Shown here one piece after another: positions 5,287-37,028 of a DNA stretch of 64,000 bases (the stretch's first letter is position 1; each line of letters starts with the position of its first letter). The notes below the pieces were generated by a model that did not search any database, was not told the DNA's origin, and saw only the letters and a list, made by a program, of their open reading frames with translations. The position numbers were made by a program, and so were the translations under genes. This DNA is from an uncultured Planctomycetota bacterium (GTDB taxonomy: Bacteria; Planctomycetota; Phycisphaerae; UBA1845; UTPLA1). The DNA lies in assembly GCA_900696465.1 (NCBI GenBank), contig CAADGE010000046.1, positions 203,858 to 267,857 on the forward strand, read 5' to 3'.

Positions 5287-6885
5287 ATGTCCCTGGACGA
5301 CTGGCATCCCATACGTGAACTGCGCGAGCGCGAGGCCTGGGTCTTTCAGCACACCAGGAAGGCGTCCGACCCCCGCCACGTGCTGATCTACAGCATGGAT
5401 CCCTGGCAACTCGCAGCGTTTGAACAATTCCTGCACCTGGCGATCGAACGGAAAGGCCACCGCGCGACAACGGTATTCGACGACGGCCTCTTACCGCTCT
5501 GCGCCTGGGAAAACCACACCGTCGCCGCGCCGCCGCGCGAAAAGCTCACGCAGCGATTCGAGTTCATGCACGCCTGCTTCGGCATCGACGCCCGCGGCAC
5601 ATCGACATACCTGCCGAAAGAGGCGGCACAGCGCGCCGTGCGGCTGCTTATCGATCACACACCGGACGAGCGGCTCGCAACGATGGAGTACGGCGAACTG
5701 CCTGTCGGGCGGATCGCCCTGCGCGACCTGACGCAATACTCCCTCGGGCGATTCGAGCCGCGCGGACCCGAAGATGTTGCACTCCTTCGTCGGCATCTCG
5801 TGCACGCCGTCATGAGTATCGACCTCGCGCGGACGATACTCGACGCGGAGCAGCCGGACATCGTCGTCCTGGTCAACGGCAAGTCGATCATGTACTCCTA
5901 CATGTACGAACTGGCCCGGCATCGCGGCATCGCGGTGACCACCTGGGAAGAAGGCGGCTACCACGATGCCTCGGTTGTGCTGGCCAACGATGCACGGGCG
6001 ATCGACTTCCCCGTGGACGAGACCTGCTGGCAGGCGGCGCGGCGACGACCGCTCTCGCCGAGAGCCGTGGCCGAGGTGGACGGCTACTTCGACCGGCTCC
6101 GCCGACAGAAGGCGCGATTCTACACTTACTACGATCATGAAGAACGTGACTTCGTCCGCATTCGCCGCGAACTGCGCATTCCCGAAGATGCCAGGATCGT
6201 GTCACTCTTCAGCAACATCATCTGGGACACCAACGCCCTCGAGAAAGACCTGCCCTTTGCGAGCATGTTCGACTGGATTCGCGCGACCATCGACTGGGCA
6301 GCAGGACGGCCGGATCGCTGCCTCGTCGTGCGAGCCCATCCAGGCGAGGCGAAGCTCTGTTTCCGCACGCGGACGCCGATCAACGATCTGATCCGCGCCC
6401 ACTACGGCGATCGCTTGCCGGAGAATGTGCGTCTGGTCGATCCTCAGTCGGAATTCAGTTCCTACGAGATCGCCGCCCACAGTGAACACTGCGCCGTGTA
6501 CACCTCGACCCTGGGTGCCGAACTCACCCTTGCCGGTCTTCATCCGCTTATTTGCGGTACGCCCTTTTATCGCGGCAAAGCGGTCACCTGCGACATCGAT
6601 TCTCCCGAGCAGTACTTCGAGATTCTTGACGGGCGGCGCAAGCCCCCTGCCGCCGATGTGACGGCCTTGCGCAAGCTGCTGCACCTGGTCATCTTCCGGC
6701 TGGTGAAGCGGCCGGAGTTCTTTCACGGCATTCACGATCATCCGCAACGGCCCCGCGTGGCCATCGACACCTTTGAAGGGTTTCCCGAGTCGATGCCGAT
6801 CTTCAACGACATCGTCGACTGCATTCTCGAACGGCGCAGCTTCACCGCGAACGAGTCACCCGGGAGGATTGCATGTCCGGCCTGA
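5287..6885 (+). CDS. Capsule-polysaccharide-synthesis-like protein
   Basis: A 532-residue soluble protein that I place tentatively near the capsule synthesis (KpsC/KpsS, Kdo transferase) family. Supporting features are the two-domain GT-B-like layout, the central WEEGGYH (the family has a conserved E-x-G-region), LVVRAHPGEAKL near residue 345, and YTSTLGAELTLAGLHPLICG near 400, which resembles the sugar-nucleotide site where such proteins read S-x-G-xE-A...G-x-P. The preceding gene activates a CMP-linked sugar, which is the donor type used by Kdo transferases, so the pairing makes sense. The end overlaps the next gene by 13 bases. An ordinary GT-B enzyme of another family is the main alternative. 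Confidence 0.62.
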   Translation: MSLDDWHPIRELREREAWVFQHTRKASDPRHVLIYSMDPWQLAAFEQFLHLAIERKGHRATTVFDDGLLPLCAWENHTVAAPPREKLTQRFEFMHACFGIDARGTSTYLPKEAAQRAVRLLIDHTPDERLATMEYGELPVGRIALRDLTQYSLGRFEPRGPEDVALLRRHLVHAVMSIDLARTILDAEQPDIVVLVNGKSIMYSYMYELARHRGIAVTTWEEGGYHDASVVLANDARAIDFPVDETCWQAARRRPLSPRAVAEVDGYFDRLRRQKARFYTYYDHEERDFVRIRRELRIPEDARIVSLFSNIIWDTNALEKDLPFASMFDWIRATIDWAAGRPDRCLVVRAHPGEAKLCFRTRTPINDLIRAHYGDRLPENVRLVDPQSEFSSYEIAAHSEHCAVYTSTLGAELTLAGLHPLICGTPFYRGKAVTCDIDSPEQYFEILDGRRKPPAADVTALRKLLHLVIFRLVKRPEFFHGIHDHPQRPRVAIDTFEGFPESMPIFNDIVDCILERRSFTANESPGRIACPA

Positions 6886-33626: not shown

Positions 33627-33696
33627 AGACGAGCTGATTCTATCCCCGAGTCGCCAGGCACGGTGCGACGCACCAATGGAATTGAAAACTCGAAAA

Positions 33697-33770
33697 CGAC
33701 CCCGAGACGATTCGAACGTCCGACCTCAGCCTTCGCAGGGCTGCGCTCTATCCAGCTGAGCTACGGGGTC
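33697..33770 (-). tRNA. tRNA-Arg, anticodon GCG
   Basis: A 74-base cloverleaf on the minus strand. The acceptor GACCCCG pairs perfectly with CGGGGTC; D stem GCTC/GAGC; anticodon stem CAGCC/GGCTG closes loop CTGCGAA, giving anticodon GCG, which reads CGC and CGU arginine codons; T stem GGACG/CGTCT with loop TTCGAAT. A20 in the D loop and a G discriminator fit arginine identity. CCA is not encoded. Most bacteria use ACG with inosine for these codons, so G34 is uncommon. Confidence 0.9.
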
Positions 33771-33827
33771 AGGTCCTTCGCAGCGCCAACGACGCAACCG
33801 CGATCAGGCACTGCGGCGAACTCTCTT

Positions 33828-33855: not shown

Positions 33856-34221
33856 GCAATGGGCTTCCCAACATGGGCTGAAGCTGGATAGCCAGCCCCC
33901 ATCCGACCAATCACCTCAACGACTACGACTGAGATTCTATTAGGGAAAATCGCGCGCTCTCGCACGAGAAAATCCATCGCCTCCGAAGATCAGTTAGTCA
34001 GACAAGCCGTCACAATAATTCCGTGCATGCAGAATTCACACCAATCGAGCCAGTTCGGATAAATCCCTAACACAAGCATTTACAGTAGTTTACGCTCCAG
34101 CATCCTCGCGTTGGCTGCATGAATCAGTCCGAAATGAACAAATTAGCAGCCTGGCATGTATAAGAAGTAGGGAAAATGTTTCCCAAGGCCCGAGAATTAT
34201 GGGGTTCTCCGCGGAAAATTG

Positions 34222-34249
34222 TTGACTGAACGATTTTGGACATTATAGT
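34222..34249 (+). promoter_or_regulatory. Strong promoter candidate upstream of an orphan small RNA
   Basis: TTGACT (34222-34227), a 16-base spacer and TATAGT (34244-34249). Both boxes are close to consensus. No plus-strand protein gene follows. A second TATAAT at 34322-34327 has no good -35. Confidence 0.5.
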
Positions 34250-34255
34250 CCCCGG

Positions 34256-34470
34256 CAGTATTAAACGATTGTAGGGTTTGGAGAAAATTACCGATAAAGT
34301 GGATGTTGGAATCCAGCGGCGTATAATCTCTTGGCGGCCTCGGCCGCACGCCATCATTCGGAGGATCTTCAGATAATCGCGGGCCCCTTTTCGCCCGCTA
34401 GAACGATTCGGCTTCTTTCCCCTCCGGAAAGCACCGGGATTGCCCTTGAGGCGCTCGGTGCTTTCTTTTT
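34256..34470 (+). ncRNA. Candidate small RNA with intrinsic terminator
   Basis: A stretch of about 215 bases between a near-consensus promoter and a strong intrinsic terminator. It contains no open frame with a ribosome site, but several predicted hairpins: TGGAT/ATCCA near 34300-34315, GCGGGC with GCCCGC around a CCCTTTTC loop near 34379-34398, and the terminator stem GAAAGCACCG/CGGTGCTTTC. I could not match it to 6S, SRP, RNase P or tmRNA: the hallmark loops of those RNAs are missing. A regulatory RNA or a leader whose gene was lost are the alternatives. Boundaries are inferred. Confidence 0.4.
34427..34470 (+). terminator. Rho-independent terminator of the orphan RNA
   Basis: GAAAGCACCG (34427-34436) pairs perfectly with CGGTGCTTTC (34456-34465) around a 19-base loop and is followed by five T. 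On the minus strand the hairpin lacks a T run, so it ends plus-strand transcription. Confidence 0.75.
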
Positions 34471-34546
34471 GCGCGAAACTAACACTCAATGTTAATTCAG
34501 GAAATCTGTTGCGATTGTGACTGTTGTGAGCGTTGAATGGCTACCG

Positions 34547-36304
34547 TCAGGGAGCGAGCGGCGGTAGCTCTCGCTGCCCTGTCACCAGATCAGCAAACAT
34601 GCCGATGATGCTCTGCGGATCAGAGGCCTCGGCGGCGAGGCGGAGATTTCGCATCCCCTCTTCTGGAAGGCCGGAGTAAAGCTCGAGATAACCGAGCAGG
34701 AATCTCAGTTCCGGACTGTCAACCTTCTCAAGCTTGGATTCGAGATCGGCACGTCGTACGTCAAACACATCGAGCCGTCCGACCAGCCCCGGCAGATCGA
34801 TCCGAAATGCGGCAATCTGCGGGAAGCGCTCAATCCCGAGCATCAGCAAGCGAACGGCCGAACGATAGTCGCCTGCCGCGGCAAGGGCGTGGCCGCGCGC
34901 CAGCAATGGAAGCGGATTGAGCGGGTCGATGGTCGATGCAAGTTCGAAGTAGCGAGCCGCGTCATAGTATCGACCGGCTTGCAGTTCCATCTCACCGGCG
35001 CGGATGTATTCATTCAGGCGGTTCTGGTGTCGGCCGGCAAAAGTCGTCAGCGGGTGCTCCAAGGTCTGTGCTGCCCAGCGAGCCGCGGTTGAAAGTTCCA
35101 GGAACCCTTCGCTCGGCTTTCGAAGCAGGCCGCCGCGCTGAAGCTCTGCGGCCGAAGGGGTCTGCCCGATCGCATCCGCCGGAGCGGCCGATACGGGCTG
35201 GACCGAGACGGCATCAAACCCAAGGCGCGTCACACCCATCGACTGTGCCGCACCTACGGCACTGTAAAGGTCCGCGAAGCGATCGGCTCCCAGCGCTGCG
35301 GGCGGCTGTCCGGGATCTGCGGCCAGGCCCTCTGCAACGGGCATAAGAGGCGATCCATCCGTGGTTAGAACAGCAGCCCCATCCGCAGCGCCGACCGGTG
35401 TCGCCAGCGGCGATTGATCCGGAGGAGGCACGGAAGTATCAATTCTGCGAAGGGCGGGATCCTCGCTCAGCAGGCCGCCGCGCGACAGGGTTTCCTCCTC
35501 GGGAGTGGTCGTGCCGGGGGTGAGCGGTAACGACGACGAGGGCAGCACGGAAGTCGAACTCAGCGCCGACGGCCGGCTGGGCGGCGGCGGCGAGCCGAAG
35601 ATCGAAGAGCCCATCGCGTCTCGGTAGGGAGCAAGCGTTCGAGCGATGTCCCGACGGTCTAGACCGGTGCCGGCCGGCGTCAGCTTGATGCCGTATTCCG
35701 AGGCGGGCGTTCGTGGCGTCACGTTCGGCGTGGTCACGTTGACGCGGCGATCCTCTGCGGGCCGCAAGTCCTGCAAGAGTGAGGACGGCTTATAGTCAAT
35801 CGTAGCAGGATTGGGCGGGATAAAATTCGTGCTCTGCACCGTCGGCGAGCCCGGTTGATTCAGCCCGGCCCGGATGAACCCCAGGTCGGAGAAGGTCTCC
35901 GGCTGACCGTAGAAGAAATTCGATTCATAGGTATTGCCGCTCAGCACGTCGCGCAATCCAACGCTGCGCGCCTGAAAGCCCGAAAGACCCGCCGACGGCA
36001 GCGATCCGCGGAACTGATTGTTCTGCACGACCGGTGAGTAGCCCTTGAACCCCGCCAGACCGGTGACGTTCCCCGTGATGATCGCATTGGCCCGTGCACC
36101 GGGATCGTTCAGCCCAGGGCGGGTAATGTTGAAGCCCGAAGAGCCGACCTGCGGATTGTTGTCGAGCAGCCGACCGGCAGCGGAAGCATTCCCCTGGTTG
36201 ACACGGTGATCGATCTGCGCAATCGCGGAGCTTGTGCAGATCAGCGCGAGGCCGATCGACGCCCCCGACAGGATTCGCGATGAACGAGTCATGATGGCAC
36301 GCAT
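34547..36304 (-). CDS. Exported protein with C-terminal TPR-like repeats
   Basis: A 585-residue exported protein of unknown function. Starting at the ATG at 36304 the N-terminus is a signal peptide (SRILSGASIGLALICTSSAIAQ); ATGs at 36352 and 36292 are alternatives, none with a clear ribosome site. Residues 30-160 are Asn/Gly/Ser-rich with short repeated NNP/NNQ motifs, residues 180-380 are Pro/Ser/Thr-rich and likely disordered, and residues 420-585 hold TPR-like helices (YIRAGEMELQAGRYYDAARYFELAS, ALAAAGDYRSAVRLLMLGIERFP). It probably works as a periplasmic or surface scaffold. No neighbour suggests a partner. Confidence 0.65.
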   Translation of the reverse strand: MRAIMTRSSRILSGASIGLALICTSSAIAQIDHRVNQGNASAAGRLLDNNPQVGSSGFNITRPGLNDPGARANAIITGNVTGLAGFKGYSPVVQNNQFRGSLPSAGLSGFQARSVGLRDVLSGNTYESNFFYGQPETFSDLGFIRAGLNQPGSPTVQSTNFIPPNPATIDYKPSSLLQDLRPAEDRRVNVTTPNVTPRTPASEYGIKLTPAGTGLDRRDIARTLAPYRDAMGSSIFGSPPPPSRPSALSSTSVLPSSSLPLTPGTTTPEEETLSRGGLLSEDPALRRIDTSVPPPDQSPLATPVGAADGAAVLTTDGSPLMPVAEGLAADPGQPPAALGADRFADLYSAVGAAQSMGVTRLGFDAVSVQPVSAAPADAIGQTPSAAELQRGGLLRKPSEGFLELSTAARWAAQTLEHPLTTFAGRHQNRLNEYIRAGEMELQAGRYYDAARYFELASTIDPLNPLPLLARGHALAAAGDYRSAVRLLMLGIERFPQIAAFRIDLPGLVGRLDVFDVRRADLESKLEKVDSPELRFLLGYLELYSGLPEEGMRNLRLAAEASDPQSIIGMFADLVTGQRELPPLAP

Positions 36305-36590
36305 GACGCGAGCGGAAAGTCCGACGTCTGTTTCACACGAATCTCTATACATTATAAGCTCGCGAGCTTCGCATGTCCGCAGATTTCCCGAAACACCGCA
36401 GGGGGCTGGCGAGTGGACTCCGAGGATGCGGCTGCACGGGCCGCGCGCGGTCCTGCCCACTAAAGATCGGCCCCCTGCTCCTGTCGCCTTGAAATTCTCA
36501 CGGAATCGCACGAAGCATCCGCCCGCGGGATCGCCTCGGATGGCCCGCAGGCGATGCCTTCGACTTGACGCCGCATCGGCGATCGGGACC

Positions 36591-37028
36591 ATGGATCACA
36601 TGCATCCGTCGCCCATAACGCATTCTGGGCTCCTGAAGGTGATCCTGCTTCTGGTCACTCTCAGCATTGGCGGACAAGCCCCTGCGCAGAATCGTTCTCC
36701 GTCCGCCCCCGTCGATCCCCGAACCGCGGTCCTGCAGCAGCTCCGCTCGCAACCGATCGGCGAGGTCACATTGAAGGAGCTTTGCCCGTCGGACGAATTC
36801 CTGGGCCGCGTAGCGGATCGGATCATCCGCATGGACTATCCGGATCGATACCGTACGGTCCTCGCGCAGGTCGATGCATCGCAATTGATACAAACATCGA
36901 AGCCGGATGCGACGGCGGAACAGCGAAACGGTTCGACCGATCGACCGTTGGGCTATCTGCTCGTCGTCGCCGCTTTGATGATTTTCGTTCTCCTCTTTCG
37001 TCTGCTCCGGCGAAGGACCGCACCATGA
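36591..37028 (+). CDS. Small exported protein with C-terminal membrane helix
   Basis: A 145-residue protein of unknown function. The N-terminus carries a signal peptide (LKVILLLVTLSIGGQAPAQ) and the C-terminus a single membrane helix (LGYLLVVAALMIFVLLFRLL) with basic residues after it, so the middle 80 residues (including EVTLKELCPSDEFLGRVADRII) face the periplasm. The ATG at 36591 is followed by another at 36600. Its stop overlaps the next start (ATGATGA), so it is translationally coupled to the guanidino-modifying-type enzyme and may anchor or regulate it. Confidence 0.65.
   Translation: MDHMHPSPITHSGLLKVILLLVTLSIGGQAPAQNRSPSAPVDPRTAVLQQLRSQPIGEVTLKELCPSDEFLGRVADRIIRMDYPDRYRTVLAQVDASQLIQTSKPDATAEQRNGSTDRPLGYLLVVAALMIFVLLFRLLRRRTAP

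Follow-up and report, generated by a model that had tools for sequence, protein, structure and literature searches.

A gene-free stretch of a Phycisphaerae genome is very probably the source of a small RNA from a family not catalogued before

Results

The locus and its likely transcript

The DNA analysed here, called the window, is a whole stretch of 64,000 nucleotides; the features of its gene-free part are collected in Table 1. An earlier note, made from the letters alone, had described this part as AT-richer, and its GC content is indeed 0.44-0.52, versus about 0.60-0.67 in most flanking 250-base segments. Beyond the tRNA-Arg lies mqnE (NCBIfam TIGR03700, above cut-off), and no same-strand protein gene with a family match stands upstream. 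A coding reading (a 54-aa frame on the plus strand and a 121-aa frame on the minus strand) was set aside, because outside the conserved core the copies of the region show numerous insertions and deletions relative to one another. A search of 34200-34500 against Rfam gave no match at E≤10, and the rest of the window gave the tRNA alone; no covariance-model match to 6S RNA, SRP RNA, RNase P RNA or tmRNA was obtained, in agreement with the note, which had seen no hallmark of housekeeping RNAs.

Table 1. Features of the locus, with the predicted target site
Feature	Position	Strand	Remarks
tRNA-Arg(gcg)	33696-33771	minus	Rfam match; conserved neighbour of the window copy
CCGATAA box	34291-34297	+	conserved in 8 family copies (identity 0.93), 5′ of the likely promoter
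TATAAT, likely -10 element	34322-34327	+	aligned in 11/13 family copies
Probable sRNA transcript, ~136 nt	34335-34470	+	inferred from promoter and terminator positions
CGGAGG	34359-34364	+	can pair with CCTCCG 34421-34426
5′ hairpin GCGGGC...GCCCGC	34379-34398	+	sequence varies among copies; structure weakly supported
Conserved single-stranded seed GGCTTCTTTCCCCTCC	34410-34425	+	anti-Shine-Dalgarno-like
Intrinsic terminator hairpin + TTTTT	34427-34470	+	helix covaries over 85 sequences
Convergent gene, weak TPR matches	34547-36592		3′ of the window copy
Predicted seed target site GGAGGGGAAAGAAGC			lipoprotein leader

The hexamers TTGACT-16-TATAGT, which the note took for a strong promoter, are present at 34222-34249, but over 8 family copies they are not conserved (the -35 has a mean identity of 0.40, the -10 of 0.46), and a search of the nearest relative that tolerated up to 3 mismatches did not find them. 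TATAAT, on the other hand, occurs in 8/8 rows of the alignment, with a shift of 1-2 columns in some and a raw column identity of 0.69. Since this element and the CCGATA box are conserved whereas those hexamers are not, the 5′ end had been misassigned, and transcription probably starts near 34335. The arrangement CCGATA-N18-32-TATAAT has a single occurrence in the window genome; promoter-like sites in the region number 3, versus 1.4 expected, which is not clearly above chance. The CCGATAA box is probably a regulator site, and CGATA lies 60-140 nt ahead of the core in 58/107 copies. A fixed -40 element was considered for CCGATA and discarded: it fits the window type, but the box lies further upstream in copies linked to mnmE (see below) and near the seed in AT-rich families.

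The perfect 10-bp terminator stem that had been reported (34427-34436 with 34456-34465, followed by TTTTT at 34466-34470) was confirmed. The claim that the whole stretch of about 215 bases is structured held for the 3′ 141 nt (z -3.41 against shuffles, 1/200 as good) and was less clear for the full 216 nt (z -1.77, 11/200 as good). For folding of the 5′ hairpin, mean z was -0.82 versus -0.15.

Distribution of the family

BLAST with a 281-base query gave matches in 96/101 genomes, the window's own included, and revealed a second copy within that genome. Nearly all matches corresponded to query bases 207-276, i.e., the seed plus terminator that form the core, and the first 200 bases were hardly matched, even within the same genus. 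From 85 of the 88 distinct cores (alignment A1) a covariance model was built, which matched 172 of 298 Phycisphaerae genomes at E≤0.01, about 139 of these (counted by hand) at E≤1e-7. When a sample of the phylum was searched, 65/294 genomes matched at E≤0.01; outside the class no match was better than 2.3e-6 and nothing was convincing, those inspected resembling bare terminators or chance. The plasmids searched gave no matches. Among the pattern matches listed, named records were mostly Phycisphaerae, Phycisphaerales or Planctomycetota MAGs, and exact matches in other phyla (e.g., Flavobacteria) lacked a terminator and were removed by the terminator filter. In the rows of A1 found by pattern the seed letters were set by the search pattern, which by itself accounts for part of their invariance; no such constraint applies to the BLAST and model matches. 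A MAG contig labelled 'Alphaproteobacteria' (L100) is probably mis-binned, because its gene order matches that of the Phycisphaerae contigs L061, L070 and L103.

Those portions of the literature available to us on small or structured RNAs of Phycisphaerae and Planctomycetes, and on CCCCUCC, describe no such RNA. That the family is a new one, although of a kind of regulator already known, is well supported.

Seed and terminator

The terminator helix shows covariation, which the note had named as a check: 11 of 15 pairs are changed on both sides, 93.3% of cells are paired (A1), 0/500 shuffles scored as high and slid versions scored far lower. One pair is broken (A-C) in 17 sequences of the GGAGAGC subtype. 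Thirty of 35 class loci passed a CTCCGG filter (L292, L294, L316, L319 and L320 failed and were left unread), and CCCCTCCGG was found in 30/30 loci read. In the f11 and f13 families the terminator arms vary independently of the seed while CCCCTCCGG stays constant, which argues that the seed is conserved for something outside the hairpin. In four copies (L032, L046, L069 and L112) the -10 of a TTGAC promoter ends 6 nt before the core and only seed and terminator remain; the smallest unit is therefore seed plus terminator.

The upstream CGGAGG may have a counterpart in many copies, in that 43/79 GGAAAGC copies have GGAGG at 20-90 nt before the core, versus 4/79 at a control offset; the corresponding figures are 7/25 for GGAGAGC (control 0) and 0/7 for GGAAGGC copies (control 2). 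Folding of the window copy gave a probability of 0.99 for pairing of CCUCC with upstream sequence. In copies of the main subtype, GGAAAGC, the predictions agree with this, the mean being 0.67, versus 0.42 with distant upstream DNA, and for GGAGAGC and GGAAGGC copies it was 0.44 and 0.18. The remaining seed was predicted to be about half unpaired (0.52-0.54 versus 0.50 in the control), so that its openness is no signal in itself.

Candidate targets

The wobble pattern GGRGGGGRRRGRRGC matches the window genome (G000) at three places, i.e., the two RNA copies and a site 26 nt ahead of the GTG of a gene encoding a 103-aa protein, which we take to be a lipoprotein from its N-terminal TGC motif; no Pfam family reached cut-off for it. 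This 5′ leader holds the sole perfect 15-nt seed complement in the genome outside the family copies, with a duplex energy of -33.8 kcal/mol; this complement lies 5′ of the purine-rich stretch that serves the gene itself for ribosome binding, and not on it. The site is identical in the orthologues from G001 and G009, where it precedes the start by 29 and 25 nt, and carries one G-U change in that from G012, whereas the full site is absent from those in G002 (same genus), G010, G006 and G014, i.e., 4 of the 8 read. The comparison covers 8 motif-bearing orthologues, weaker matches having been left out, and three of the four site-bearing ones were first noticed via the site itself. The lipoprotein mRNA is a good hypothesis for a target.

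With one mismatch allowed, GGAGGGGAAAGAAG was found at 114 places in 21 genomes, versus 31 for a reversed control, an excess that includes RNA copies and ordinary Shine-Dalgarno stretches. The exact site precedes other proteins with secretion-like N-termini in G006 and G010. In the AT-rich families, one-mismatch sites for GGAGGGGAGAAAAC stand right before the start codons of two secretion-like proteins (L333 and L334) and others are not so placed; as a target signature this is suggestive only. A 15-nt seed complement also occurs in a nearly identical stretch in genera G001 and G009 (L213:1127-1140 and L216:11-24) that is not obviously a leader.

Mode of action

The locus probably encodes a stand-alone, trans-acting base-pairing sRNA, the anti-Shine-Dalgarno seed of which would lower translation from mRNA leaders; pairing through the seed appears the likeliest mechanism. 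It has what is, by sequence and conservation, a promoter of its own, together with an intrinsic terminator and a conserved seed predicted to be unpaired. The earlier suggestion of a new regulatory RNA gains support from the class-wide conservation, the covarying terminator, the conserved neighbourhoods and the lack of an Rfam match, although regulation itself is inferred. Transcription would begin near 34335 from the CCGATA/TATAAT promoter and end at the terminator, giving an RNA in which a variable 5′ domain is followed by the pyrimidine seed GCUUCUUUCCCCUCC and, immediately after this, the terminator hairpin. The internal CGGAGG could mask the CCUCC end of the seed. The seed would bind purine-rich stretches at or near the ribosome-binding sites of mRNA leaders and reduce their translation; the targets are probably envelope or secreted proteins, the first candidate here being the 103-aa lipoprotein mRNA. 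Hfq (PF17209) was found in 0/17 genomes, with a control search positive in 5/14 known genomes, so the RNA may act alone or with another chaperone.

It is unlikely, in our judgement, that the seed serves instead as a decoy for a protein or the ribosome, either as an anti-Shine-Dalgarno mimic or as a titrator of CsrA via GGA, and not as a partner for mRNA. CsrA is encoded in 15/17 genomes, the RNA has GGA motifs (CGGAGG, CCGGAAA), and conservation of the seed exceeds the need of a single target. However, GGAGG is missing from the upstream interval in about half of the GGAAAGC copies, and the minimal copies lack the 5′ domain altogether. GGA motifs are few compared with a CsrB-like titrator, where many sit in hairpin loops, and the one in the core belongs to the basal part of the terminator stem, where L308 and L315 have GGT. 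Nor would a decoy be expected to have a perfect 15-nt match in the leader of an mRNA.

Genomic settings of the copies

In the window's own family, tRNA-Arg(gcg) lies within the locus in 12/13 copies. Elsewhere, as judged by C-terminal motifs, an nrdJ-like gene ends ≤420 nt upstream in 42/107 distinct copies and an mnmE-like gene in 15/107; representatives were identified via NCBIfam, where MnmE and most NrdJ scores were below the curated full-length cut-offs, the frames being partial or divergent. The mnmE-linked copies often have a TTGAC promoter, with the -10 ending 45-74 nt ahead of the core.

These neighbours would suit a conserved terminator, or 3′ processing element, of nrdJ and mnmE that makes no stand-alone RNA, as would the seed-like CTTCTTTCCCCTCC right before unrelated terminator-like hairpins at L189, L223 and L229, stretches that are possibly further siblings of the RNA. 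We nevertheless regard such an element as very improbable: the conserved 16-nt stretch is not needed for termination, copies including the minimal ones have promoter-like sequences of their own, and the window copy is not preceded by a same-strand protein gene backed by a family match. A cis-acting switch that would control the terminator, with GCUUCUUUCC either pairing with GGAAAGC (CCUCC in the loop) or freeing GGAAAGC for the terminator, is hardly credible. The window and the AT-rich families allow either pairing, and once the 3′ arm is removed the first reaches a mean probability of 0.30 to 0.64, depending on subtype; but in the full RNA the alternative falls to 0.00 to 0.12, and only a convergent gene lies downstream of the window copy. 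The local form (CUUUCC-CCUCC-GGAAAG versus terminator) was abandoned, since changes of the terminator arm in f11 and f13 are not matched in the upstream segment.

A fourth gene order is common to the GGAAGGC copies L061:2292, L070:2209, L100:5357 and L103:2795, in that a presumed lpxA-like gene precedes them, and a secreted-looking protein and a presumed tdh-like gene follow (names taken from N-termini). In the AT-rich families (L153:568-1143, L295:1904-2497 and L300:1986-2564) the RNA follows a conserved protein of some 195 aa at a distance of roughly 350-440 nt. This protein has no Pfam match and, in the two scanned, no NCBIfam match.

Discussion

The gene-free stretch described here very probably gives rise to a small RNA whose family had not been catalogued before. 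A C-rich segment is conserved in this RNA and seems designed for pairing with mRNAs at their ribosome-binding regions. Nearest to it in function, so far as the available parts of the sources allow a comparison, are alpha-r14/cuckoo and 6C RNA. The alpha-r14/cuckoo sRNAs often occur as several siblings. Like the present family, they combine a conserved C-rich anti-Shine-Dalgarno motif with stems that vary in sequence; in the excerpts of PMC10746234 available, the members in Alphaproteobacteria (NfeR1, CcsR) are credited with an ultraconserved, unpaired motif and differing stem sequences. They carry CCUCCUCCC in three hairpins, whereas the Phycisphaerae RNA has just one CUUCUUUCCCCUCC stretch, immediately ahead of the terminator (in the window copy a single CCCCUCC, with no Rfam match), belongs to another phylum and occurs without Hfq.

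6C RNA of Actinobacteria also has a C-rich segment conserved across a large taxon. It has two stem-loops with about six C in each loop, according to the accessible part of PMC4046766, and binds mRNAs without RNA chaperones, to go by a title cited in PMC6789036. In contrast, the Phycisphaerae stretch is mixed C/U and lies outside such a hairpin loop; 34335-34470 contains no six-C run and gave no Rfam match at E≤10. The Rhodopirellula-1 motif (Weinberg 2010) is likewise a candidate RNA motif listed for Planctomycetes, but it is also listed for Proteobacteria, in an entry that gives no Rfam accession, whereas nothing convincing was found outside the class here.

Annotated sRNAs are few in the Planctomycetes/Verrucomicrobia/Chlamydiae group, for which a table of PMC9029176 gives 8 distinct ones. 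With its fixed seed and its class-wide spread in genomes where Hfq was not detected, the family offers a handle on the workings of sRNA pairing there and on the functions that such pairing controls, and the predicted lipoprotein leader provides a testable first target.

A wider proposal, which we put forward tentatively and hold to be doubtful, is that the seed-terminator cassette acts as a core, Hfq-free global riboregulator of the class Phycisphaerae. A constant seed would then be combined with exchanged promoters, 5′ domains and neighbours, several siblings per genome would answer different signals, and envelope and secreted proteins would be controlled jointly; the proposal also takes in a copy on a phage-like contig. 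The latter is an IMG/VR contig of 72.9 kb (L342), which has seed and terminator of the GGAAGGC subtype at 6391-6411, together with family matches to RecT-like, RusA-like, HNH endonuclease and DNA methyltransferase proteins; here the RNA may have been borrowed by a phage.
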